Position numbers and translations under genes: made by a program
Notes under the pieces: model-generated
What the model was told of the DNA's origin: nothing
Seen by the model: the letters and a program-made list of their open reading frames with translations, nothing else
Database searches by the model: none
Shown: one piece after another, positions 1 through 17,344 of the stretch
How positions within the stretch are numbered: position 1 is the first letter of the stretch
Layout: each line of letters starts with the position of its first letter
IMG/VR virus record: IMGVR_UViG_3300023184_000462
Location: 1-26,211 of that record
DNA length: 26,211 nucleotides
Strand: one strand, 5' to 3'
Origin: a virus

Positions 1-80
1 TTAACACCTGATGATACACCAGCAGTAACGATAACTGGTGTAATTGAGTTTGCTCTTAATGATTTTAAACTTGTTGCCAT
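1..80 (-). CDS. Partial CDS, N-terminus of a small virion-type protein (runs off left edge)
   Basis: The reading frame opens at an ATG whose A overlaps the TAA stop of the preceding fibre gene (TAATG arrangement) and stays open for 26 codons to the window edge. The visible product begins MATSLKSLRANSITPVIVTA. The start, A/T/S-rich composition and position suggest a small beta-rich virion protein, loosely like the 108-residue protein encoded at 7399-7725, which also begins M-A-(N/T)-(T/S). That similarity is weak. The stop/start overlap suggests translation coupled to the upstream fibre gene. The function is unknown and most of the gene lies outside the window. Confidence 0.7.
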   Translation of the reverse strand, partial: MATSLKSLRANSITPVIVTAGVSSGV

Positions 81-2053
81 TATAGTTCCAGTACCTTCCA
101 TCCATATGTAGTGTTACTATAAACTAAACCAAAACTGGTTTGATCCACATCTATTGTTAAGTCAGCAGCAATACCTTGAATCTTGTGACTGTTTCTTGCA
201 ACAGTTAAATTGTTTGCACTGAATGTTCCGGCCAAATCATTGAAACGAATTGTATCACCTAATGTTGCCGTTGCAGGCAACGTCATTGTTTTTGGACCCG
301 TTGAAGTATCAACAAAATAACCACTGCTTGCAACCATGGTTGTATTTGCGTTTGCAATATACCATGTTAATGAATTACCACCACTAACAGTAACCAATTC
401 ACGCACTTGAATATCAACACCAGTGGCAGGTGCAGTTGCAAATACTACGTTTGCACCAGATACTGTATAGTCTGTAGTTGGTCTTTGTAAAATACCATTT
501 TCTGCAACCAGTAAATTGTTAGAACTAATACCAGAAGTAACAGTAAAGTTTGTTGCAGTATTATTACCTGTATATCCTCTGTAAACTAAACTACCTGAAA
601 CCACAGAAGTGGCAGTTAAGGTTGTGACTTCAATATAAGAAGTATTTGGTGGAATAGAATCAAATGATAAAACATTTCCAGATAAACTATAAGAAGTTTT
701 AGGTTGTATTACACCTTGTATGGAAACAAAAGTTAAATTTTCATTTGATGGTGTTGTTGATAATGTGAATGATGAATTTGATCCGTCACCTGTAAATGCA
801 TCAACATAACCTATCAGTGCTGCGCTGCTGACGTTGTTTGCAGCAGTATAGGCCGCATTTGCTTGTGCTCTGGCCCAAGTGTCTGCACCACCTGCCGTAT
901 TGGCTGTTGTAAAGGCTGCGTTAGCTGTATTATATGCATTGTTGGCTTGATTTCTAACCCAAGTATCAGTAGCATTATTGGCCGCATTAAAGGCCGCATT
1001 AGCAGTTACAAAGGCACCGTTAGCAAAAGATGCTGTGGTATTTTGTGATGCATAAGAAGCGTTTGCGGTTATAAAGGCACCGTTGGCAAATGAACCTGCG
1101 GAGTTGGCCTTATCAAATGCATTGTTTACATAAGGTAATAAATCTATACCTTTAAGTGTAATCGTTGTTGATTTTAAATTTGCATTGAGTGTTGCAACAG
1201 AAAATGATGCATGATTGATATCAATATTATTGTTAGCACCAACTTCTGGAGTATAACCTTCAAACAAATACCATTCATCAACACCAGAATCTCTTATCAA
1301 ACCGGTATGAGCATTTGTTCCGTTATTGTAGTGTGATGCAAAACCAATATCTAATACATCACCACTATAGTTTCCAATACCCATTATAAACAAGGTATCG
1401 TTAGCAACAATTTGCGTTGCACTTGTAATGAAACTGTTTCCAACAACTGATAAATTACCTGTGATATTAACATCACCAGATATTGTACCACCTGAAGTAT
1501 TAAATTTTAGATTTGCTGCCGCAAAGGCACCATTAGCAAAACTTGCGGCAGAGTTGGCTACAATAAAAGAACCATTAGCAAATGAACCTGCTGAGTTAGC
1601 TGTATTATATGCATTGTTGGCTTGATTTCTAACCCAAGTATCTGTCGCATTATTGGCAGCATTGAAAGCTGCGTTAGCAGTTACAAAGGCACCATTAGCA
1701 AAACTGGATGCTGAGTTTGCGGTGTTATATGCATTGTTTGCCTGAGTTCTAACCCATGTGTCAGTAGAATTATTGGCAGCCGTGAACGCCGCATTTGCGG
1801 TATTGTATGCGTTGTTAGCCTGTGTTCTAACCCATGTGTCAGTAGAATTATTGGCAGCCGTGAAGGCCGCATTTGCAGTATTGTATGCGTTGTTAGCTTG
1901 AGTTCTAACCCATGTATCTGTGGAATTATTTGCTTGTGTAAATGCGGAGTTTGCTTGAACGAAAGCCGCATTTGCTTTACCAAAAGCAGATGTAACCAAA
2001 GAAGAAAAATCTTTGGTTGAATCTAATCTTGATGGCGTTATTTTTGTTGGCAT
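80..2053 (-). CDS. Repeat-rich tail fibre protein with C-terminal beta domain (657 aa)
   Basis: I see a short N-terminus (MPTKITPSRLDSTKDF) that shares T-K-I-T-P-S with the 330-residue fibre at 12123-13115. Alanine/asparagine repeats follow at about residues 25-181, including three near-identical 26-residue units with the motif TDTWVRTQAN. A D-I-G-F module lies at about 205-295 (VLDIGFASHYNNGT, then GLIRDSG and WYLFEGY), then more repeats at 310-407. Two beta domains of the F-T-G-x-G/T-x-Y-x-V-S-G type sit at about 417-480 and 490-553. The last 95 residues (GYFVDTS, TLPATATLGD, GLVYSNTTYGW) resemble the C-terminal domain of many marine phage fibres. No Shine-Dalgarno is visible before the start, so it may depend on translation from the 121-residue gene nine bases upstream. 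It is most likely a trimeric fibre with a distal beta tip; its receptor is unknown. Confidence 0.88.
   Translation of the reverse strand: MPTKITPSRLDSTKDFSSLVTSAFGKANAAFVQANSAFTQANNSTDTWVRTQANNAYNTANAAFTAANNSTDTWVRTQANNAYNTANAAFTAANNSTDTWVRTQANNAYNTANSASSFANGAFVTANAAFNAANNATDTWVRNQANNAYNTANSAGSFANGSFIVANSAASFANGAFAAANLKFNTSGGTISGDVNITGNLSVVGNSFITSATQIVANDTLFIMGIGNYSGDVLDIGFASHYNNGTNAHTGLIRDSGVDEWYLFEGYTPEVGANNNIDINHASFSVATLNANLKSTTITLKGIDLLPYVNNAFDKANSAGSFANGAFITANASYASQNTTASFANGAFVTANAAFNAANNATDTWVRNQANNAYNTANAAFTTANTAGGADTWARAQANAAYTAANNVSSAALIGYVDAFTGDGSNSSFTLSTTPSNENLTFVSIQGVIQPKTSYSLSGNVLSFDSIPPNTSYIEVTTLTATSVVSGSLVYRGYTGNNTATNFTVTSGISSNNLLVAENGILQRPTTDYTVSGANVVFATAPATGVDIQVRELVTVSGGNSLTWYIANANTTMVASSGYFVDTSTGPKTMTLPATATLGDTIRFNDLAGTFSANNLTVARNSHKIQGIAADLTIDVDQTSFGLVYSNTTYGWKVLEL
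920..967. repeat. 48-bp direct repeat, copy 1 (within the 657-aa fibre gene)
   Basis: Positions 920-967 are identical base for base to 1595-1642. Both copies encode A-N-x-A-Y-N-T-A-N and T-D-T-W-V-R-N-Q segments of the repeat shaft. Identity without synonymous drift suggests recent duplication or gene conversion. Confidence 0.9.
1595..1642. repeat. 48-bp direct repeat, copy 2; 38 bp also shared with the 853-aa gene
   Basis: This copy is identical to 920-967. In addition, 1608-1645 is identical to 6022-6059 in the separate 853-residue fibre gene. The same DNA therefore occurs in two genes about 4.4 kb apart, in the same orientation and reading frame, which could support recombination between them. 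Confidence 0.88.
1715..1942 (-). repeat. Tandem 78-bp (26-residue) repeats in the 657-aa fibre
   Basis: The string gttctaaccc recurs at 1746, 1824 and 1902, an exact 78-base period. The neighbouring units differ at only a few bases. The protein unit is V-R-T-Q-A-N-N-A-Y-N-T-A-N-A-A-F-T-A-A-N-N-S-T-D-T-W, at about residues 38-113. The period is a multiple of three, so gain or loss of a unit would keep the frame and only change shaft length. Confidence 0.9.
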
Positions 2054-2062
2054 TTTTAATAT

Positions 2063-2428
2063 TTATGACATGTACCAGTATTGAGAAGAAGGTGCAGCAG
2101 GTGCCCCAAATGGATCGGGTGCTGTTTGTATAAATGTACTCATTCTAGTAACAGATGTTACTGTTGCAACATAAAAACCACCTTGTGTAGGTAAATTACT
2201 ATTAGATAAAGAAAAAGATTCAGAATTCGATATTTGATTTATAGATGTATTAGATACAAGTATAGAATTTACGGTTGGAACATTAAATCCACCATTAATC
2301 GGAGAAAAACCATTGCCTGAAAAATTTATTGTACCAGAAGGTATATCACCAAACAGAACTGTAAATGTGTTTGTTGATGATATTGTGGGTGTGTAAAAAC
2401 CACCTATACTTATAGTGGTATTTGCCAT
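2063..2428 (-). CDS. Small protein with three 37-residue repeats, unknown function (121 aa)
   Basis: I do not recognise this family. The GGF motif recurs at residues 9-11, 46-48 and 83-85, an exact 37-residue spacing. Each GGF is followed by a similar strand: FYTPTISS, FNVPTVNS and FYVATVTS. The first two units also share a later S-x-x-x-F-S segment ending in proline. This implies three copies of a beta unit, though whether they form a prism, a solenoid or a trimer surface cannot be told. The C-terminus is proline- and alanine-rich and ends QYWYMS. There is no signal peptide or membrane segment. It starts three bases after the stop of the 419-residue gene with only a weak ribosome-binding site, so it is probably translationally coupled. 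Its position among fibre genes suggests a virion or adhesin accessory role; this is inference. Confidence 0.78.
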   Translation of the reverse strand: MANTTISIGGFYTPTISSTNTFTVLFGDIPSGTINFSGNGFSPINGGFNVPTVNSILVSNTSINQISNSESFSLSNSNLPTQGGFYVATVTSVTRMSTFIQTAPDPFGAPAAPSSQYWYMS

Positions 2429-2431
2429 GGT

Positions 2432-3691
2432 TTAAGCTTTTCGGATAAACCATAAGTCTGGTGTATTGGGTGCTGCACCTGTTCTTACAGGAATCCAACT
2501 TTCACCATTTATAGTATATTCACTTGCAGTTACATAATAATCCAATCCTGCTTTTGTCATGTGTGGTCCACGCATAATACCATAGGCCGTTCCCTGAACA
2601 CCACTATAATTGCCAGTATTGAATCCACTAAACACTATTGGATATGCTGCTGGTACGGATAAACCAGTTATAGGATCGCTCATTGGTGGTTCCCAATTAG
2701 TAAAATAGTTATAACTAGCTTGTGATTGATTTGATAGTAAGTAGTTTGGTATAATTGGTCTTAAATAATTATAAGTTATCGAACCTTCTCGTACATATCC
2801 ATAACTAGGTACGTTTGGCCAACCATAATAAGATGCTCCTCCCATTTGCCATGTCAATTGACAAGGATAATTATAATTATTATAACCAGTTCCACCCCAA
2901 GTAGTTGAGTATGCTACAGGAAAAGTTCCGTCTTGTTTAATTCCTGTTCCAAACATAACAGCTGTGTCTTGATGGTAATAATTGTTTACAGTCCAATTGA
3001 CTGTATCTGTTCCTCTACCGTAACAAAAATGGACCCAAGGAACATTATCTGTTTTTGTTAATTCCCATCCAGAAACTGTTCTTAAACCAAAATAAAATAA
3101 CGCCTTAGGAGTTACAATAATAATATAATTTGCTGTAACAGCAATAGTATAAGTCATTGATGCTTCATCAAATCTAAATGCACCATGATTATAGGATGTG
3201 ATACTTCCAGGATCACGAACACCACAAACTGGTGTACTGTTCCAAATATCAGTACTTGTTATTGCAATTGATGTTGGATTGTTGGCTGAACAACCTGCGG
3301 CCCATTCTATACGTGGATAACTAGTGAAAGAACTGCTATACGGATAATTATAATTTCCAAAAGCTGCACGTAAATATGGAAAAGTTGTTTTACCTGTACC
3401 TGTCTGATACAAATCCACCCATGTTGAACCAGAAGATGAACTATATGCTGTGTTTGCAAAAGTTGTTGTACTAACTCCGTTTGACCAACCACCAGCTTCT
3501 GAATTACTAACAACAGTTATACAATTATAACTACCATTAAGTGTACCTCCTGATGTGTTTACTGGATTGACAACAGGTGTACTACCTGCATTTGCTGTTG
3601 CTACTGCATGTAAACAACGCAACATATTAAAGTTTCTACTTTTTGCATCGGTGGAAACACCACCAATTTCTGGATTAACTGTGACTATCAT
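2432..3691 (-). CDS. Aromatic-rich putative adhesin or virion surface protein (419 aa)
   Basis: I cannot assign a named family. The protein is exceptionally rich in Tyr, Trp, Asn, Ser and Gly (for example NYNYPYSSSF and TGYNNYNYPCQLTWQMGG) and has several cysteines. A central segment, NYIIIVTPKALFYFGL (about residues 188-203), resembles NIVITSKCLYFSSL in the 273-residue product of the gene just before it in the operon. The two may therefore be distant paralogues. The last 35 residues (ASEYTINGESWIPVRTG through PDLWFIRKA) look like the end of a virion surface protein, with a short aromatic-hydrophobic terminus. The start has a good GGAG ribosome-binding site, ACGGAGTAAAAAATG, which overlaps the end of the upstream gene. 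There is no signal peptide. An aromatic-rich surface between repeat fibre genes suggests sugar or receptor binding; this is inference only. Confidence 0.82.
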   Translation of the reverse strand: MIVTVNPEIGGVSTDAKSRNFNMLRCLHAVATANAGSTPVVNPVNTSGGTLNGSYNCITVVSNSEAGGWSNGVSTTTFANTAYSSSSGSTWVDLYQTGTGKTTFPYLRAAFGNYNYPYSSSFTSYPRIEWAAGCSANNPTSIAITSTDIWNSTPVCGVRDPGSITSYNHGAFRFDEASMTYTIAVTANYIIIVTPKALFYFGLRTVSGWELTKTDNVPWVHFCYGRGTDTVNWTVNNYYHQDTAVMFGTGIKQDGTFPVAYSTTWGGTGYNNYNYPCQLTWQMGGASYYGWPNVPSYGYVREGSITYNYLRPIIPNYLLSNQSQASYNYFTNWEPPMSDPITGLSVPAAYPIVFSGFNTGNYSGVQGTAYGIMRGPHMTKAGLDYYVTASEYTINGESWIPVRTGAAPNTPDLWFIRKA

Positions 3692-3694
3692 TTT

Positions 3695-4516
3695 TTACTC
3701 CGTAATTATTGCATAATTATTTGCGGCCAATCTGGATGTTCCCGATGTATTGTATACCGAATCTATTACATAACCGTAATCAGGAATTCTCATTAGATTG
3801 TTTACACCAAATGCTTGATAACCTTGTGTGTTTGCTGCAATAAATGCTGGATTTTCAACTACAACTAAACTGCCGGTTGCATTACTTGCAAATGTAGGTG
3901 GAACATAAGTTGTCCATAAATTACCCGAAATGCTTGAGTAACCGCTTGCTGCACCTTGTAGGTTGTATGCATAAGGAACATTGAATGTTCCATTGGTTAA
4001 TTTAATATATGCCATCTTCATCTGAGATGCATAAGTTGATGTGATACCATTGTTACCTAAATCAAATAAACCAAATCCTATACCACTAGTTAAACTGGAA
4101 AAATATAAACACTTGCTTGTAATGACAATGTTTAATCCTTTAGGAAATTGTTCTGAACCATTGTATGTATTTGGTGTAACGTTGACTGTTTGTGCAACAC
4201 TGTTTAATAAAGTATCTGTGCCTGATGTATAACTTTGAGCCAAAGTGAAGGTTGTCATCTTGGATGAATCATATGTCAATCTAAAATAGTGTGTATAACC
4301 ACTATCTGTACCATGAATTTTACTAAATGTATTTGAACTGTCGTTTACTTTTGTGTATATGCCTGCTGGATATGTACCTGTCATGGTAGTGTTTGCTTTA
4401 TCGCAACCAGCACTTAGACCACTAACACTAGTGATGGTACCATCAATCAAACCTTTAATGTCAGAACTAAAGGTTGTGATAGTTGTATTTGCATACATTC
4501 TATATTTGATTAACAT
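3695..4516 (-). CDS. Putative virion surface protein, possible paralogue of the 419-aa protein (273 aa)
   Basis: No family is recognised. The protein is rich in Ser, Thr, Asn, Gly and Tyr and probably all-beta. The segment NIVITSKCLYFSSL (about residues 130-143), followed by G-F-G-L-F-D-L-G-N, parallels the core segment of the neighbouring 419-residue protein. The C-terminal third contains PDYGYVIDSVYNTSG and ends NNYAIITE. I kept the first ATG although a second Met lies at residue 7. GAAGGA sits upstream at good spacing (AGAAGGAACCCAATAATG), and the first ATG overlaps the stop of the 102-residue gene (TAATG), a coupled start. It probably works together with the 419-residue protein as part of the same fibre tip or decoration, judged only by adjacency and the shared motif. 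Confidence 0.8.
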   Translation of the reverse strand: MLIKYRMYANTTITTFSSDIKGLIDGTITSVSGLSAGCDKANTTMTGTYPAGIYTKVNDSSNTFSKIHGTDSGYTHYFRLTYDSSKMTTFTLAQSYTSGTDTLLNSVAQTVNVTPNTYNGSEQFPKGLNIVITSKCLYFSSLTSGIGFGLFDLGNNGITSTYASQMKMAYIKLTNGTFNVPYAYNLQGAASGYSSISGNLWTTYVPPTFASNATGSLVVVENPAFIAANTQGYQAFGVNNLMRIPDYGYVIDSVYNTSGTSRLAANNYAIITE

Positions 4517-4824
4517 TATTGGGTTCCTTCTGAAGGTGTTTCTTCCTCTACCACAACAGGATCTGGTTCAGGTGGTAAAGGTAAAGGTAAATCAACAACA
4601 AATATGAAATTACTATCTTCTATGTTGTAATCGTCCTTTGTGTAAACGAAATATGTTCCTTTTAATTGAGTGACAACACAACTAACCAAATTAGTACCTG
4701 CAGCGTCTGCAAATTTAAGGGTTATATTTTCAACTTGTGAATCACCAGCAACCAATTCACCAGCATAAATGTATATTTTTGCTGGTTCTGTTCCAAATAA
4801 TTGTTGTAATAAATCGTGCGTCAT
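4516..4824 (-). CDS. Small protein with Pro/Glu-rich tail, unknown function (102 aa)
   Basis: The first 75 residues look like a small beta domain (KIYIYAGELVAGDSQ, ENITLKF, GTYFVYTKDDYNIED, NFIFVV). The last 25 are a low-complexity acidic, proline-rich tail, LPLPLPPEPDPVVVEEE and onward, likely unstructured. Such a tail could be a linker or docking segment, but nothing in the sequence proves it. The ribosome-binding site is clear (AGGAATAGAA before the ATG). The gene follows the 853-residue fibre by 11 bases, and its stop overlaps the start of the 273-residue gene, so these genes are probably made together. I do not recognise a homologue. Confidence 0.75.
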   Translation of the reverse strand: MTHDLLQQLFGTEPAKIYIYAGELVAGDSQVENITLKFADAAGTNLVSCVVTQLKGTYFVYTKDDYNIEDSNFIFVVDLPLPLPPEPDPVVVEEETPSEGTQ

Positions 4825-4835
4825 TTCTATTCCTA

Positions 4836-7397
4836 TTATGAATATTCTAGGTCTACTTTTAAGTCTGTGGCACCAGTGCCTGTAGTTATATTTATCGTCA
4901 AATAATCTGACGATGTGAGACTTATACTTGCGGCCGTTGCACCCATTCTATATGTTCCGGCTGACATGGTGTATGTACCAACAGTAGAACCATTCTTTTT
5001 CAGTACAAATGTGAATGTATCTGAAGATGCTGTACCTAAACTCGCATAAACATTACTAATGGTACAGTTGGCTGTTGGATAACTTCTTGCAGTTCCAGTA
5101 ACTGGTGTGGAGATAGAACCTGTTTGTATAAAAGTAAAGTATTTCTTTGATGTTGCAACAGTAACGTTTGCACCTTGTAATACCGAAGTAACCTCTATCA
5201 AGGCACCATTTTCAAATGTTGAATCAAAAGTAATTACACCGTTTGCAACAGTATATGAGTTTCTATATTGAACGGTACCATCCACAATAGCAGTAATAAA
5301 ATCTTCTGTTGATGGAACCACACTCAAAGTAAATGTGGTAGTATTTCCGTTTGCAGTAAAGTTGTCTGTAGTTACTGCAATACCAGAACTTGAACCACCA
5401 CTTGTATTGGCTGCATTAAACGCTGCATTGGCTTGTGCAAAGGCCGCACTAGCTAAACTTGCGGCTGTATTGGCTTGTGTAAAAGCACCATTTGCAAATG
5501 AAGCTCCCGAATTGGCCACTCCATAACCAGAGTTTGCCCTCAAGAAAGCACCATTAGCAAATGAAGCCGCAGAATTAGATGTTACAAAGGAACCATTTGC
5601 AAAACTTGCAGCTGAATTGGCAGTTACGAAGGCACCATTAGCAAATGATGCACCAGTGTTCGCAACACCGTAACCAGAATTTGCTCGGTCAAAAGCACCA
5701 TTGGCAAAAGATGCTGCTGCGTTAGCAGTTACGAAGGCACCATTAGCAAATGACGATGCACTATTAGCTTGTGTGAAAGCACCATTAGCAAATGAAGCCG
5801 CAGAGTTGGCTGCATTATATGCTGTATTTGCCTGAGTTCTTACCCATGTATCTGTAGAATTATTTGCAGCAGTAAAGGCTGCATTGGCTCTATCAAATGC
5901 ACCGTTAGCAAAGCTGGCACCAGAATTAGCGGTTAAAAATGCACCGTTAGCAAAGCTGGCTGCCGAGTTCGCTGTTGTAAATGCACCATTAGCAAAACTA
6001 CCTGATGAATTGGCCGTATTGTATGCATTGTTGGCTTGATTTCTAACCCAAGTATCTGTTGCATTATTGGCTGCATTATAAGCTGCGTTGGCTCTATCAA
6101 ATGCACCATTAGCAAAAGATGCTGTAGTATTCTGTGAATTATAAGATGAATTTGCAGTAAGAAAAGCGGCATTTGCCGTGCTTCTTGCATATGAATCTGT
6201 ACTACTGGTGTTGGCTGCATTATAAGCTGCATTGGCATGTGCATAAGCCGAGTTTGCAAAAGATGCACCAGAGTTTGCCTTGTCGTATGAACTGTTGGCT
6301 TGACCCCTTACCCAACTATCAGTAGAATTATTGGCAGCTGTAAACGCAGCATTTGCTGTTGCATATGCAGAATTTGCTCTATCAAATGCTGAATTGGAGT
6401 TGTCTGTAATAACTGGAATGTTACTTAATAACTCACGTACTTGAATTATTGATCCATTTGCCGGAGCTTCCACAAAAGTAATAGTGTTTCCACTTACACT
6501 ATAGTCTGTTAATGGATTTTGTGTAATACCATTATCAAAAACTAGAATACTATTTGCGGATGTATTAGAAGAAATAGTAAAGGTGTTTGTGTTACCATTA
6601 CCAGTAAAGTTTCTTGTTATATAATACAAAGCAGCTGTATTGCTGGCTGTAAAAATTGTATTGTATGCCAAATTGGCTGTAATAAAGGCTGCATTAGCAG
6701 TTCCTCTGGCCCAAGAATCTGAACTTCCTGTATTCGCTGCATTGTAGGCTGCGTTAGCATGTGCAAAGGCACCGTTAGCAAATGAACCAGATGAGTTGGC
6801 CGCATTAAATGCACTGTTGGCTTGCGTTCTAACCCAAGTATCTGTTGAATTGTTGGCAGCTGTAAAGGCTGCATTTGCGGTAGCATAAGCAGTGTTGGCC
6901 TGTGTTCTAACCCATGAATCCACAGGGTCAGTGTTTGCTTTATTGAAGGCCGCATTTGCTTGAATGAAGGCTGCCGTAGATAAATCGACAGCAGTATTTG
7001 CCTGAGTGAAAGCACCATTTGCAAATGAAGCACCACTGTTTGCAACACCATATCCAGAGTTTGCTCTTAAGAAAGCACCATTAGCAAATGATGATGTAGA
7101 GTTGGCTGTAACAAAGGCACCGTTAGCAAATGATGCACTAGAATTTGCAACTTCGTAACCTGAATTTGCACGTTGAAAGGATGCATTAGAAAAAATTGCA
7201 GTAGTGTTTTGCGAAAGATATGATGCATTAGCAGTTACAAATGCACCATTAGCAAATGACGCACCAGAGTTGGCTGTAACAAAGGCACCGTTAGCAAATG
7301 ACGCACCACTATTAGCAGTTACAAATGCACCATTAGCAAATGAACCGGCTAACCTTACATCCTTTTTATCTTGGTTGCCAATGTAACTAAATTCCAT
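4836..7397 (-). CDS. Long repeat-shaft tail fibre with C-terminal beta tip (853 aa)
   Basis: After about 17 N-terminal residues the protein is mostly an Ala/Asn repeat. Its 14-residue units of the form F-A-N-G-A-F-V-T-A-N-S-G-A-S mix with the longer T-D-T-W-V-R-T-Q-A-N unit. The repeats fill about residues 18-250 and 333-677. A beta domain interrupts them at about 262-324 (NFTGNGNTNTFTIS, FDNGITQNPLTDYSVSG, IIQVREL), and a second one follows the repeats at 678-742. The final 100 residues (KYFTFIQTGSIS, YASLGTASSDTFTFVLKKNG, DYLTINITTGTG, DLKVDLEYS) resemble a beta-sandwich tip found at the end of many marine phage fibres. A homotrimeric shaft with a receptor-binding head is likely. The start is one base after the 108-residue gene's stop, with only a weak GGA upstream. 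Other-frame ORFs over this gene are caused by the repeats. Confidence 0.9.
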   Translation of the reverse strand: MEFSYIGNQDKKDVRLAGSFANGAFVTANSGASFANGAFVTANSGASFANGAFVTANASYLSQNTTAIFSNASFQRANSGYEVANSSASFANGAFVTANSTSSFANGAFLRANSGYGVANSGASFANGAFTQANTAVDLSTAAFIQANAAFNKANTDPVDSWVRTQANTAYATANAAFTAANNSTDTWVRTQANSAFNAANSSGSFANGAFAHANAAYNAANTGSSDSWARGTANAAFITANLAYNTIFTASNTAALYYITRNFTGNGNTNTFTISSNTSANSILVFDNGITQNPLTDYSVSGNTITFVEAPANGSIIQVRELLSNIPVITDNSNSAFDRANSAYATANAAFTAANNSTDSWVRGQANSSYDKANSGASFANSAYAHANAAYNAANTSSTDSYARSTANAAFLTANSSYNSQNTTASFANGAFDRANAAYNAANNATDTWVRNQANNAYNTANSSGSFANGAFTTANSAASFANGAFLTANSGASFANGAFDRANAAFTAANNSTDTWVRTQANTAYNAANSAASFANGAFTQANSASSFANGAFVTANAAASFANGAFDRANSGYGVANTGASFANGAFVTANSAASFANGSFVTSNSAASFANGAFLRANSGYGVANSGASFANGAFTQANTAASLASAAFAQANAAFNAANTSGGSSSGIAVTTDNFTANGNTTTFTLSVVPSTEDFITAIVDGTVQYRNSYTVANGVITFDSTFENGALIEVTSVLQGANVTVATSKKYFTFIQTGSISTPVTGTARSYPTANCTISNVYASLGTASSDTFTFVLKKNGSTVGTYTMSAGTYRMGATAASISLTSSDYLTINITTGTGATDLKVDLEYS
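5367..7346 (-). repeat. Ala/Asn-rich 7/14-residue repeat region of the 853-aa fibre
   Basis: Heptad-like units x-A-N-x-A-x-x run through residues 18-677, broken by a beta domain at about 262-324 (roughly 6426-6614). Strings such as gcaccattagcaaa recur many times in the + strand text with mostly third-position differences. The protein pattern is therefore better conserved than the DNA, which argues for selection on structure. Confidence 0.85.
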
Positions 7398-7398
7398 G

Positions 7399-7725
7399 TT
7401 ATGTTATTTCCAATAAACTCAAAATAACATCTGCTGCTGAAGCATTACTTGTTGAAACTTTGAGAGCATCGTTGGCTCTCATTATTAATTTCTGTTCACC
7501 ACCAATTGTAATCAAAGAATTACCTGGATCAATTACAGCCATCTTAACCATATAATAATCCGACCCACCGGAAGTTAAGATAACGTTTGCGGTTATTGAT
7601 GTGTTTAATATGTTTGCAATCGTCATGCCAATGACTGTCGTTGATACATTGGCACCAGCTGTATAGATTGTGGTAGGTGATGTTCCGACTGCTGCTTGTA
7701 GTTGATTTTTAAAAGTATTTGCCAT
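7399..7725 (-). CDS. Small conserved virion-type protein (108 aa)
   Basis: The product contains segments typical of a small beta protein often found beside fibre genes in marine T4-like phages: TIYTAGANVSTTVIGMTIAN, then DYYMVKMAVIDPGNSL, then a strand ending DVILSLLEIT. I recall this pattern from pelagiphage and cyanophage structural clusters, but the exact role is not established. There are no membrane segments. The ribosome-binding site is good (AAGGAAATTTAAATG). A 29-base gap separates it from the 159-residue gene and contains a possible late-promoter element. It ends one base before the 853-residue fibre gene, so it may be expressed as a pair with that fibre. Confidence 0.8.
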   Translation of the reverse strand: MANTFKNQLQAAVGTSPTTIYTAGANVSTTVIGMTIANILNTSITANVILTSGGSDYYMVKMAVIDPGNSLITIGGEQKLIMRANDALKVSTSNASAADVILSLLEIT

Positions 7726-7743
7726 TTAAATTTCCTTATCCTT

Positions 7744-7751
7744 TATTTATT
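7744..7751 (-). promoter_or_regulatory. Candidate T4-type late promoter (AATAAATA)
   Basis: The minus strand reads AATAAATA, one base from the T4 late consensus TATAAATA. It lies in the 29-base gap 18 bases before the ATG of the 108-residue gene. It is short and AT-rich, so chance occurrence is possible. Confidence 0.3.
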
Positions 7752-7754
7752 ACA

Positions 7755-8234
7755 TCAACTAAAGGCGATAGTGAAAGCAACAATGTCTGAGTTGGTGTCT
7801 AGTGCGGTTGTTCCTGTGTTTGCCTTATTGAAGGCTGCATTAGCGTGAATAAAGGCTGCATTAGCAAATATAGCCGTGGTATTTTGTGCTGCATAGGCCG
7901 CATTTGCACGGTCAAACGCAGGACCAGGATCACTTCCTCCTGATACCGATGCATTGATTGTGATTGTTTTTGTGGTTGTGTTGGTGCTAATGGTAACATT
8001 ATTACCAGCAACGAAAGACAAGGTGTCTGAACCACTTCCCGCAAATATTAGGGAGTTGTTTGAGTTGATTGTGTCAAACGAGAATTGGTTGGAGATGTAT
8101 GATGTTCCACCAAGACTGTTTTTATAAAACAGTTTTCCATCGGCGTAGTTAAGAGCGACCTCACCAAATGCAAGACCTGATGGTGTGTTTCCTGTTACGC
8201 CTGATTTTTTTAACTGTATTGCTGTGTTTGACAT
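7755..8234 (-). CDS. Short fibre-like protein: Mtd-like N-terminal module plus Ala/Asn repeat (159 aa)
   Basis: Residues 1-45 (IQLKKSGVTGNTPSGLAFGE, then VALNYADGKLFYKNS) match the N-terminal module seen at the start of many phage fibres and related to the major tropism determinant N-terminal domain. The 76- and 637-residue proteins in this window start with related modules. A beta segment with N-N-V-T-I-S-T-N-T-T follows. Residues 105-143 carry the same F-D-R-A-N-A-A-Y and F-A-N-A-A-F repeats as the large fibres. The C-terminus ends DIVAFTIAFS. It lacks a tip domain, so it may be an adaptor or a shortened fibre. The ribosome-binding site is weak and the start is four bases after the coiled-coil gene's stop. 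Confidence 0.82.
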   Translation of the reverse strand: MSNTAIQLKKSGVTGNTPSGLAFGEVALNYADGKLFYKNSLGGTSYISNQFSFDTINSNNSLIFAGSGSDTLSFVAGNNVTISTNTTTKTITINASVSGGSDPGPAFDRANAAYAAQNTTAIFANAAFIHANAAFNKANTGTTALDTNSDIVAFTIAFS

Positions 8235-8238
8235 TTAC

Positions 8239-8964
8239 TTAAAACGATCCGCCATCCTTGAGTTCGCCATCAGCACCAACTAAACTTGTTATAGCAGTTG
8301 GTGCCACTTCTTTATTCAGCTGTTCTTCAATTTTTTTTCGTTTGGCAGGAGGTAGTTGTAAGTATTCAATCTTTTCAGTTAATGATTTAATCGTATCATT
8401 TAAATTACTTTTTTCAGTTTCATGTTTCTGAATCAACAGTTTAACATTCTTTTCATTTTCTTCATTAATGCCATTAATTTTTCCAGTATTTTCGGCATTA
8501 ATAGAGTTGATTCTATTGTCAAGTTCTGTACGAACTCTATTAGTTTCTTCTCTGGCTCGAATCAATTCACCTTTAAACGTTTCAACATGTGTTGCTTGAT
8601 TCTTAACACTTTCATAGTCTCTAAACTTTGTGTTTAATTCTTCAAGTTCAACACGATGTTTATTGGTCAATTCATTAATGTCGGTACTTTGTTTAGAAAC
8701 AAGTTTTTCGGTTTCGGCTAACTTGTTTTTTAAATCTTGTATAACATTATTTTCATTTGATGCATTGGTTAATTTTAATTCTTGAACAGTTTCTTGCAGT
8801 TCTTCGTTTAAATTAATCAACGCTTCAATTTTTTCACTTTGTTCTTTTACAACCTCATCAGTAATTTTTTGGTTCGCTTGCATTGAAACATTTCGGACAA
8901 CACAGTCTGTCATTGTTGCCGTTAATGTTTCAATATAATAATTTAAATACTTTTCATTTGCCAT
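8239..8964 (-). CDS. Coiled-coil protein with D-x-G-x-F C-terminus (241 aa)
   Basis: From about residue 30 to 210 the sequence is charged, rich in Glu, Lys, Asn and Leu, and almost free of Gly and Pro. Heptads are evident (for example KIEALINLNEELQETVQELK and NDTIKSLTEKIEYLQ), which strongly predicts a long coiled coil. This contrasts with the beta/repeat proteins around it. The basic stretch PPAKRKKIEE follows, then a less charged tail ending GELKDGGSF. That ending matches the D-x-G-x-F terminus of the three genes transcribed just before it. The ribosome-binding site is the strongest in the cluster (AGGAGTTTGATATG), and a 46-base gap precedes the gene. It could be a fibrous whisker-like component, an assembly scaffold or a fibre chaperone; the sequence does not decide. 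It has a single cysteine near residue 21. Confidence 0.85.
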   Translation of the reverse strand: MANEKYLNYYIETLTATMTDCVVRNVSMQANQKITDEVVKEQSEKIEALINLNEELQETVQELKLTNASNENNVIQDLKNKLAETEKLVSKQSTDINELTNKHRVELEELNTKFRDYESVKNQATHVETFKGELIRAREETNRVRTELDNRINSINAENTGKINGINEENEKNVKLLIQKHETEKSNLNDTIKSLTEKIEYLQLPPAKRKKIEEQLNKEVAPTAITSLVGADGELKDGGSF

Positions 8965-11751: not shown

Positions 11752-12093
11752 TTAAAATACAGTAACTTGAGGCAATACGTTCACAATTCCTTCTAAAACT
11801 CTTGTAACATTGTTAGAAGAATCTTTTATAACAACATCATATACGTATCTACCAGCAGAAATATTTGCTGTGTTTGCATATGGTAAAGACATAATCATAA
11901 TGCCTTCAGTTGGATCATTGATAGTTATAACGAATTGCGCTGTTGTGTTACTTGAATAATAAGATTTTTTCATCACAGCTTTAATTTGGCAATTAACTAA
12001 TTGAAAAGGTGTACCATCGGCCTCATCTAATGCTACTGATGTATTGAAGTTTGAACCTTGTTCTAAAAATAATTCTTGATAACCTGCTGGCAT
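11752..12093 (-). CDS. Small beta-sandwich virion protein (113 aa)
   Basis: The sequence follows a pattern found in many tailed phages of aquatic bacteria: a start with Q-G-S-N-F-N-T-S-V, then C-Q-I-K-A-V-M-K-K-S-Y, FVITINDPTEGIMIMSLP, and finally GRYVYDVVIKDSSNNVTRVL-E-G-I-V-N-V-L-P. Alternating hydrophobic strands and the late G-R-Y-V-Y-D motif suggest an immunoglobulin-like sandwich, similar in style to BppU-type N-terminal domains of baseplate proteins. That comparison is by pattern only. A strong AAAGGGG ribosome-binding site precedes the ATG, and a possible late promoter lies in the 29-base gap upstream. It is probably a small baseplate or fibre-attachment component. Confidence 0.8.
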   Translation of the reverse strand: MPAGYQELFLEQGSNFNTSVALDEADGTPFQLVNCQIKAVMKKSYYSSNTTAQFVITINDPTEGIMIMSLPYANTANISAGRYVYDVVIKDSSNNVTRVLEGIVNVLPQVTVF

Positions 12094-16100: not shown

Positions 16101-17344
16101 GCTTGTAAAGTATTGGTATGAGTTTTACCTGTTACAGCTATAGCTGCAGTGGTAATTAATGTGTTCGCAATTAAATTTTTTGTCCAACTGGTGTTAACAA
16201 CACTTGAGTTGGATGTATTCGTTGAAGAATTTGCTTGTAAATCATTTACAAAAGATGTTCCAACAACATTAATTGTTGGTGTTATTATATTAATATTTGC
16301 TGTTAATGTATTAGCTAATACATTTGTTGAAATCACTTGGCTTGTTATTACGTTAGACGTTGAATTCAATGAGTTTGTAAAAATTGTACCATAATTTATA
16401 ATATTTCCTTGAATATTAGCTGTATTGGCATTTAACCTATCGGTTCCAATTAAATCTAAAGCGGTAAATGTATTTGAAGTTACTGATGTGTTTGCAATTA
16501 TTATATTTGTTATTAGAGTATTAGATAATACACTATCAGATCCCGAAATTAAAGTATTAGAAACAAGTCTATTTGTAAAAATTGTGTTAACAACGGATAT
16601 ATTTGAAGTGTTTACGGATGAATTGGCTTGCAATCTATTTGTATGTAATGTGTGTACAATAGATGCATTAGATGTGTTGACACTGGAGTTGGCTTGTACT
16701 GAGTTGCCGAAGATACCAGTTGTTATAGAAATAGTTGCAGCGTTAATGACAGTATTAGCCTGTATTGCTGTTGTAGTTATAAAAGTGTTTGCTTGTAAAC
16801 GACTTGTGTATATGTTACTGTTTGCAGTAAGTGCTTCTGTGACAACTTGATTATTTGATTGTAGTTTACTGGTGTATGATGTACCGGTAACAGATAAAGT
16901 TTCCGTATTAACCTTTTGGCGTGCTTCAAGTACATTTAAATCTAGGTTTCCACCAACATATAAATCACCACCAACTCTTGCATTATTTGCAACCCTTAAA
17001 CCAAAACCGGAACCTAATACATTCAATACGTTTGCAATGTTTGCGCTACCCGATGTGGATAAACTCAATTCGGTATTTGTAAATAACCCTTGGCGTTGTA
17101 CAGTCAAATCATTCTGTATTGTTGCGGAAGAACCGACACCTTGCACACTCAAAACTTTTTGTATAATAACATTACCGTTTGACTGTAAAGCGTTTAACGT
17201 TCCTTCTGAAAGATAAATTGTACCAGAATCTTTTACATAATTGTCTTTGGCCAATGTATTATTTTCAGCAATCAATGCACTGGTTGCATTTAACCAATGT
17301 CCGAATGTATTGGCATAACTTAATGTGGTAACTGTATTAGCCAT
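13112..17344 (-). CDS. Long tail fibre with S74 self-cleaving intramolecular chaperone (1410 aa)
   Basis: Domains in order: an N-terminal beta region (1-143) with V-G-G-D-L-Y-V-G-G-N-L; about sixteen degenerate 22-residue repeats (144-506); the module VGGNFVINGTTIYNSNVFTL and following (517-585); Ala/Asn repeats (628-690); a G-Q-G-G-T-G unit (about 757); a beta domain (820-884) with Y-I-N-G-V-R-Q; and fibre repeats with D-A-K-G-R-I-T. The end is a Peptidase_S74 domain (1318-1410). There S1319 and K1324 in YSDARLKTN have the five-residue spacing of the catalytic Ser-Lys pair described for endosialidase-type chaperones. A-Q-E-M and the final E-A-I-K-E-L-K helix are also typical. This domain drives trimer folding and is then cut off before the serine. 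AAGG precedes the ATG, which is one base after the 73-residue gene's stop. It is the longest fibre of the set. Confidence 0.93.
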   Translation of the reverse strand: MANTVTTLSYANTFGHWLNATSALIAENNTLAKDNYVKDSGTIYLSEGTLNALQSNGNVIIQKVLSVQGVGSSATIQNDLTVQRQGLFTNTELSLSTSGSANIANVLNVLGSGFGLRVANNARVGGDLYVGGNLDLNVLEARQKVNTETLSVTGTSYTSKLQSNNQVVTEALTANSNIYTSRLQANTFITTTAIQANTVINAATISITTGIFGNSVQANSSVNTSNASIVHTLHTNRLQANSSVNTSNISVVNTIFTNRLVSNTLISGSDSVLSNTLITNIIIANTSVTSNTFTALDLIGTDRLNANTANIQGNIINYGTIFTNSLNSTSNVITSQVISTNVLANTLTANINIITPTINVVGTSFVNDLQANSSTNTSNSSVVNTSWTKNLIANTLITTAAIAVTGKTHTNTLQANTSANTETLSVTQRALIDQVQANTSVNTQILSVSTTAFANRLEANSIVYTPLLNVTGNTFTNRLQSNISVNTATMSVTQKIDANNASVFVNNLQTVGQLSVGGNFVINGTTIYNSNVFTLNAGSNEGLISSIDINRGVTGANASLRWNETNKNFDILNVTNGNYYRIITDQYVSDALDQTAAQAASSTAANTLNTKITTANTFLQGRIDSSDKFANAAFVRANSSYTSQNTTASFANAAFRHANAAFEAANNVAPQVAPSFAHANAAFDKANTTVATIKGTTGSATANGAGITLKSNNGIVIFATNDNGTGNTLSISTSQDLTTTGSPTFAALSLTTPLQVGQGGTGTSSYASLFGLTVTAAAGSGAAGKVLGTDGAGGYSWVTGGTGEGGGGTQPGSRISSSRLSYTGDSLTTKFTTPTFSVGTQLRTYINGVRQLESEYFAFTSNSIVQFTSAPVTGDKILVEVDGYAVYEYFANNIAYGPVSGSMVANTIQEAIDNLETRKMPKIGGTFTGRVDGLTMPTTTSNTVFATTAFVNNFANSSYTFMHSITGNAGTVTNGLYSSSSYANPSWITSIANTKIDGTIADINLINSGVTAATHGNANTIPRFTVDAKGRITDVTNTAILIRSSQIIDLPAAVDTTNATNIISGTLGNDRLTTQSGLSSGTYGAGNKVGTFTVNSKGVITAASDSQISITKSQVSDFPTFGAWVAVDTRDASNINAGTLAEARLPYSYAKLSGATFTGDVSISAGTGTISLGTNGDIKAFRSGGTSGAIFLNSAGTRYLYNDGTKYYLNGQGLEVNGSNVLNTTDSFNITGTRNYTSSASVGTASQAGTLVAYGNSSSSGTNHATMSFHRPSGYAINMGLDNDNIFRIGGWSDGLNTFRMTLDTVGNAVFRNNVTAYSDARLKTNVETITNALDTVSKMRGVTYERIDSGTKGVGVIAQEMKEVLPEVVMDASSDDEFMSVSYGNIVGVLIEAIKELKAEIEVLKGQNK
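13115..13393 (-). other. Peptidase_S74 (intramolecular chaperone) domain; predicted cleavage before S1319
   Basis: This segment encodes residues 1318-1410 of the 1410-residue fibre. The predicted nucleophile codon is at 13388-13390. By analogy with endosialidase and L-alanyl fibre chaperones, cleavage would release a fragment of about 92 residues from the mature fibre. The conserved S-D-x-R-x-K motif and the G-V-I-A-Q-E segment support the family call. Confidence 0.85.
15827..16915 (-). repeat. About sixteen tandem 22-residue repeats in the 1410-aa fibre
   Basis: Units such as SVNTSNISVVNTIFTNRLVSNT recur with 22-residue spacing across residues 144-506. The rough consensus is S-V-N-T-x-x-L-S-V-T-x-x-x-x-T-N-R-L-Q-A-N-T. 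One extra 11-residue half unit (FITTTAIQANT) occurs, and one unit is a residue short. The units diverge in sequence, so the repeat is old compared with the tandem repeat at 1715-1942. Confidence 0.85.

Follow-up and report, generated by a model that had tools for sequence, protein, structure and literature searches.

The question raised by this locus is what two adjacent, aromatic-rich proteins of 419 and 273 residues do behind a long tail fibre gene. The window, by which we mean the whole stretch of DNA analysed here, is a virus record of 26,211 bases with its main genes all on the minus strand, in a series of a 285-aa fibre-like protein, gp8, a 2114-aa protein and then fibres and small genes. 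The gp8-type baseplate wedge protein matched phrog_438 (1.6e-84), the 2114-aa protein belongs to phrog_358 (named VrlC in some cyanophage records), and both had about 30% identity to homologues of cyanophages, Rhizobium phages and others. Because of these matches the virus is classed, on its sequence, as a T4-like myovirus; it is probably a freshwater virus, judging by the sample sources of related IMG/VR records.

Gene layout, composition and pairing

Both open reading frames were present side by side on the minus strand, as the initial annotation described them (Table 1), with a gap of 3 nt between them and a 1-nt overlap of the 273-aa frame with that of a 102-aa protein; the three genes are called the trio below. 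The pair does lie between two large fibres, although two small ORFs, of 102 and 121 aa, intervene. The 853-aa fibre varies in its shaft between relatives, and the family of the 121-aa ORF has five distinct members (the window, L095, L098, L099 and L103). Elsewhere in the window, at 11752-12093, a 113-aa protein matched phrog_1084 and phrog_3304 (L-shaped tail fibre assembly) and was 97-99% identical in the related records G007, G009 and G029.

Table 1. Features around the 419-aa and 273-aa genes, in window coordinates
Feature	Position	Strand	Basis
853-aa fibre gene with SFANGAF-type repeats, directly upstream of the trio	4836..7397	-	PHROGs tail fibre matches
C-terminal ~105 residues of this fibre, a domain common to genes preceding the trio; proposed docking domain	4839..5153	-	
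102-aa small protein with acidic proline-rich tail; proposed adaptor or chaperone	4516..4824	-	
273-aa protein, putative structural counterpart of JBD30 gp47, first partner	3695..4516	-	Model and 8rk3_K match
Segment NIVITSKCLYFSSL of the initial annotation, residues 129-142 of the 273-aa protein	4091..4132	-	
419-aa protein, putative structural counterpart of JBD30 gp48; the fast-changing second partner	2432..3691	-	Model and 8rk3_G match
Segment IIIVTPKALFYFGL of the initial annotation, residues 190-203 of the 419-aa protein	3083..3124	-	
Candidate receptor-facing loops, residues 267-325 of the 419-aa protein, variable in the family, mostly pLDDT < 50	2717..2893	-	
121-aa ORF behind the pair	2063..2428	-	Same-place relatives in few loci
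Second flanking fibre, beyond the 121-aa ORF	80-2053		

The 419-aa protein was the most aromatic of the 19 window proteins (Tyr 8.1%, Trp 3.1%, aromatic residues 15.0%), which bears out the unusual Tyr and Trp content ascribed to it, and the 273-aa protein was second (12.5% aromatic). Glycine made up 10.0% and 9.2% of the two proteins, and long glycine runs were not seen in the translations. The pair had also been said to lack the modules of the large fibres, and indeed, when all window proteins were compared by BLASTP, the fibres matched one another and the pair was absent from the best 60 matches.

Moreover, the two proteins had been proposed to share a core segment, IIIVTPKALFYFGL in the 419-aa protein and NIVITSKCLYFSSL in the 273-aa protein. 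The former lies inside the conserved core of the 419-like family (invariant T186, Y189, G202 and N216). The two segments have 5 identities and a BLOSUM62 score of 28, and the best 14-mers scored at least 28 in 172 of 200 composition-preserving shuffle pairs, so that the likeness is at chance level and does not speak for homology; when other window proteins were set against the 419-aa protein, their best 14-mers scored 21-44. BLASTP of the 419-aa against the 273-aa protein gave no match below E 0.6, and profile-profile comparison of the two families, the check that the initial annotation had suggested, revealed no significant homology (P 0.05, 0.17 and 0.37). The best weak alignments of two of these runs (P 0.17 and 0.37) fell at the region of the two segments with the register displaced by roughly 12 residues, and this placement also agrees with the predicted strand-strand-strand-helix pattern.

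Neither protein matched PHROGs (E <= 1), and in Pfam the pair had no match above the cut-off, with DUF5730 (E 0.14) below it. Nothing was found by tblastn in phages (both proteins) and plasmids (the 419-aa protein), or by single-protein scans of viral contigs with either protein, and sequence searches of the PDB with the pair gave nothing meaningful. A scan of genome contigs for a host or prophage copy returned 20 pattern matches, none of which encodes a relative, and Rfam had no match in the window.

The gp8 search of viral contigs gave 327 related loci, of which 80 were kept; of the 50 longer records among these, 3 (G007, G009 and G029) had both genes of the pair, next to each other and in one order throughout, and many of the remaining 47 gp8-bearing records are fragments. 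Additional loci were recruited with alignments from these three records, and HMM families drawn from every ORF in the collected loci comprised 34 distinct 419-like, 34 273-like (32 of them used, two fragments having been dropped before alignment) and 28 102-like members, without overlap between the 419-like and 273-like families. A 273-like gene stood 1-12 nt upstream of 33 of the 34 distinct 419-like genes, the sole unpaired one being the second tandem copy in L115. Since the two families were searched for separately, this pairing is a result and not a selection. Two copies of the 273-419 pair were seen in L126 (984-3255 and 6001-8205), with a 745-aa protein between them. Some 273-like proteins were enlarged: those of L101:4142-5995, L104:4174-5997 and L136:2021-3877 have 607-618 aa, with inserted repeats (GTxLTVxxxVTGxFxxGMxxTGTGV) at loop positions, and G007-like 273-like proteins have an insert of ~128 residues after about residue 107.

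Predicted folds and the gp47-gp48 pair of JBD30

AlphaFold2 models of both proteins were built from the family alignments, with pLDDT 92.1 and pTM 0.90 for the 273-aa protein and pLDDT 72.9 and pTM 0.81 for the 419-aa protein. When VIA-align 2 was run on chains ranked by Foldseek, the 273-aa model matched 8rk3_K (Z 16.8, rmsd 3.0, 227 of 273 residues aligned over the whole length, 9% identity) and the 419-aa model matched 8rk3_G (Z 16.5, rmsd 3.7, 261 residues aligned across 1..419, 10% identity), and the next-best structures had Z 2.8 and 3.4, respectively. Entry 8rk3 is the baseplate of Pseudomonas siphophage JBD30 and includes the sequences of both gp47 (318 aa) and gp48 (307 aa), which are encoded by adjacent genes in the order seen in the window. 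From the lengths (chain ranges 2-318 and 2-306), chain K would be gp47 and chain G would be gp48. Presumably each model matched both proteins, because each run counted two chains at Z >= 8, with one chain, the best, listed for each entry. In the Foldseek search of the 419-aa model against the PDB, 8rk3 was absent from the best 50 matches and nothing was found at E <= 0.001. In BFVD, both models matched A0A8S5S435, A0A858WHP8 and A0A7T3PGW6 (E 5e-5 to 0.4), and the 273-aa model also matched proteins of KL1, MAR10 and AH2, which by length are gp47- or gp48-position genes; the BFVD matches A7KUT3 and A7KUT4 (adjacent accessions) may be proteins of Bacillus phage 0305phi8-36.

As a positive control, hhalign of gp47 against gp48 gave E 5e-14, but gp47 and gp48 against the window families were not significant (best P 0.019), and 0 of 34 419-like and 0 of 32 273-like members matched phrog_687 at E <= 0.01. 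Because profiles detect gp47 against gp48 but neither of them against the window families, the link of the window pair to the JBD30 pair is, as judged from the models, structural only.

In JBD30, gp47 and gp48 are reported to have similar folds and to form three tail fibres of three gp47-gp48 heterodimers each, which clasp the type IV pilus (PMC11445458). The initial annotation had suggested that the two window proteins are divergent paralogues, and the models argue that this idea was right, because both match similar-fold partners of one JBD30 complex; the predicted folds are not unrelated, although the motif offered for the relationship does not support it. The all-beta makeup proposed for the two proteins was nearly right, except that both models start with a strand followed by an N-terminal helix (16-31; 13-25). 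If the two were instead unrelated beta-rich proteins that are adjacent by chance, the lack of sequence similarity between them would be expected. This explanation is disfavoured by the match of both models to one two-protein complex far above background and by the co-occurrence in fixed order in all but one of the distinct cases, and we regard it as very improbable.

The pair could also be enzymatic on the cell surface, since gp47 of JBD30 has been assigned to the nitrilase superfamily and an enzymatic role at that place has been suggested for it (PMC11445458). Pfam, however, had no match for gp47 or gp48 of JBD30 at E <= 1 and, as noted, none above the cut-off for the window pair, and no obvious conserved catalytic set was seen by eye among the invariant residues of either family; we therefore give this explanation very little credence.

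Divergence and exchange between lineages

The pair was expected to diverge faster than gp8, and this is what we found. Between the window and G007, gp8 was 97% identical and identity was 81-99% in the genes as far as the 108-aa one, whereas the pair was 31% and 40% identical, far from the conservation of a core baseplate protein. The cassette, which comprises a fibre with the common C-terminal domain and 102-like, 273-like and 419-like genes, occurred in phages of two capsid lineages. The pairs closest to that of the window belong to G051 (364.5 kb) and G059 (186 kb), with 47% and 53-61% identity; the major capsid protein of these two records shares 33-35% identity with the one of G007, and a gp8 relative was found in neither. 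Of the 38 records with the trio that were searched, 6 had a gp8 match, and three of these were near-identical. In the second lineage, the capsid proteins were 77-91% identical, the 419-like proteins 31-47% and the 273-like proteins 38-60%.

Five of nine additional stretches (G011, G012, G030, G038 and G013) reach past the 108-aa gene. In the first four of these, genes for other proteins, of 1354-2282 aa, come behind the fibre, with a 119-aa gene between in three of the four, and in G013 there was no complete ORF behind the fibre in the stretch. Behind the trio in L095:7665-12474 (G051) and L098:7661-12473 (G054), glycosyltransferase-like genes were noted by eye, together with sugar-kinase or nucleotidyltransferase-like (heptose synthesis) genes.

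When G029 was compared with G009, 8-22% of bases differed in the genes from the 73-aa one through the 638-aa one, and these were followed by a near-identical block of 5.4 kb upstream of the 419-like gene, with 2 mismatches in 5424 nt (by gene, up to the 273-like gene, 0/1629, 0/327, 1/2172, 0/324 and 1/894; gap columns are not counted in any of these comparisons). The 419-like gene had 33 mismatches in 1449 nt (Fisher p 1.4e-20 against the block), the next gene 3 in 417 and the sequence beyond 0 in 1441. Among the 25 changed codons of the 419-like gene 23 were non-synonymous (binomial p 0.04 for the excess, against an assumed synonymous share of 24%), and the changes were arranged in patches (codons 129-145, 184-215, 288-314, 339-340 and 378-389), with one early change and one codon insertion outside them. 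In G007, G061, G063 and G069, dN/dS was below 1 for all three genes, and the 419-like gene was mostly the least conserved. A diversity-generating retroelement was considered because the changes cluster in the 419-like gene. It was not supported: a search for reverse transcriptase (PF00078) was negative in all 16 records, the majority of which, including G009 and G029, are fragments, and some third-position changes do not fit such an element.

These observations bear on another explanation, in which the two proteins are structural fibre decoration or collar proteins that use the JBD30-like fold as a scaffold, and contact with the host is left to a different gene of the array. Function does not follow from a shared fold, several additional fibre and tip cassettes are present in the window and its relatives, and the 273-like partner is relatively well conserved and has acquired repeat domains as inserts in some phages (L101, L104 and L136), all of which would suit such a scaffold. 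Exchange between lineages, replacement by other tips in close relatives and a mostly non-synonymous hotspot in the 419-like gene would nevertheless be unusual for scaffold proteins, and we consider this explanation unlikely.

A putative exchangeable tip on a long fibre

The genes that precede the distinct 102-family genes share a C-terminal domain of ~100 residues in all cases (28/28) but have different shafts, and the copy in the window fibre matches all 27 others at E <= 4e-13. Its HMM recognised 44 of 1537 distinct ORFs, C-terminally in every case, and 37 of the 44 were followed by the trio or the pair, a share that is biased upward because most loci had been selected for carrying the trio. 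Among the 37, 30 stood before a 102-family gene, 2 directly before a 273-like gene, 4 before a divergent 102-like gene and 1 before a 93-aa gene, the last five each followed by the pair. Six ORFs preceded other genes (5 a different 94-aa gene and 1 a 315-aa protein) and one was left unsorted, the smaller groups being judged from gene listings. In L092:18246-19178 and L101:12151-13227 the domain precedes a 94-aa protein (MRFEEIQNIFQ...), perhaps of another tip system.

Taken with the folds, we consider it quite probable that the pair is a two-subunit, exchangeable receptor-binding fibre tip with the fold of JBD30 gp47-gp48, carried on a long T4-like fibre, and such a tip is its likely function. 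The initial annotation had supposed tips or adhesins that set host range, which would fit the role of the JBD30 relatives and the context of the pair (directly behind exchangeable fibres, mobile, and a hotspot of amino-acid change); a tip that is detachable found no support. We infer that the similarly folded 273-aa and 419-aa subunits would pair one to one into a heterodimeric tip, held by the common end domain of the fibre and perhaps helped by the 102-residue protein, in which conservation would be higher in the 273-aa subunit and the variable, host-touching loops would belong to the 419-aa subunit. The whole cassette, fibre-102-273-419, is exchanged among phages, and close relatives carry other tips in its stead; such exchange or replacement would change host range. 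The pair may therefore be a determinant of which bacteria are infected, and by analogy with JBD30 a type IV pilus is a possible receptor. A point against the tip is that sequence homology is detectable neither to the JBD30 pair nor between the two window proteins. Further points against it are the Foldseek result for the 419-aa model, the poor modelling of its residues 267-325, the dN/dS values below 1 in the G007, G061, G063 and G069 group and the occurrence of the common fibre domain before other genes.

The comparison with JBD30 (PDB 8rk3 and 8rk5; phrog_687) shows likeness in the folds of the partners and in the arrangement of two adjacent similar-fold genes with the gp47-like one first. 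The differences are that JBD30 is a siphophage and the window virus a T4-like myovirus, that the window pair has no phrog_687 or profile match, that the 419-aa partner is more than 100 residues longer than its JBD30 counterpart, and that the pair lies behind the tape measure there but behind a long repeat fibre and the 102-aa gene here. In JBD30 and 9 annotated relatives the pair stands between the tape measure and a tail gene, for which the annotations are distal tail, tail assembly, virion structural or hypothetical. As neither sequence homology nor gene position agrees, we regard the window pair as a structural relative of the JBD30 pair in a new setting and not as a member of that family. 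The mounting must also differ, because the pair follows a long fibre whereas the known pairs sit behind the tape measure and belong to the baseplate. Further, we tentatively suggest, as a picture that is still rather doubtful, that a pilus-gripping heterodimer of the JBD30 type might be traded as a plug-in long-fibre tip through a common socket among T4-like and jumbo phages from freshwater that belong to two capsid lineages, one subunit staying constant and the other being diversified locally, at the resolution of a single gene, by selection, gene conversion or targeted mutation.

Model-inferred gp47/gp48-like pairs have been proposed to form JBD30-like pilus-binding fibres both in siphophage Lydia (PMC11946847) and in Mu-like Vibrio harveyi siphophages (PMC12482185). 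These pairs resemble that of the window in being two similar-fold proteins, but belong to siphophages, and the passages on Lydia (PMC11946847) and the Vibrio harveyi phages (PMC12482185) describe no exchangeable long-fibre cassette. Among the titles and passages searched, we found no description of a JBD30-type pair behind long fibres of T4-like or jumbo phages with a common fibre-end domain, although one may exist elsewhere in print.

The pair is nameless in PHROGs and Pfam, yet it is an apparent receptor-binding module of large freshwater myophages, the solved relatives of which (JBD30) grip type IV pili. If this is true, it would offer a structural way into the question of how uncultured lake phages recognise their hosts, one fold would serve both siphophage baseplates and T4-like long fibres, and the fibre-end domain would be a flag for exchangeable tips in metagenomes.

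The gp38 protein of the T2/S16 type is a single glycine-rich, exchangeable adhesin that caps the long tail fibres of T4-like phages. The window pair would be like it in its role as exchangeable adhesin and is like it in its place downstream of a fibre gene in a T4-like phage, but differs in comprising two apparently paralogous proteins with 9-10% glycine and another fold, and the glycine-rich motifs of a single tip protein were not found in it. Additional cassettes of G007, each with a fibre, a protein of ~109-118 aa and a glycine-rich protein of ~300 aa (L092:1088-1417, 1417-2382, 4174-4503, 4503-5396, 7135-7491, 7493-8446 and 16942-17271), resemble, by eye, alternative gp38-like tips beside the trio.
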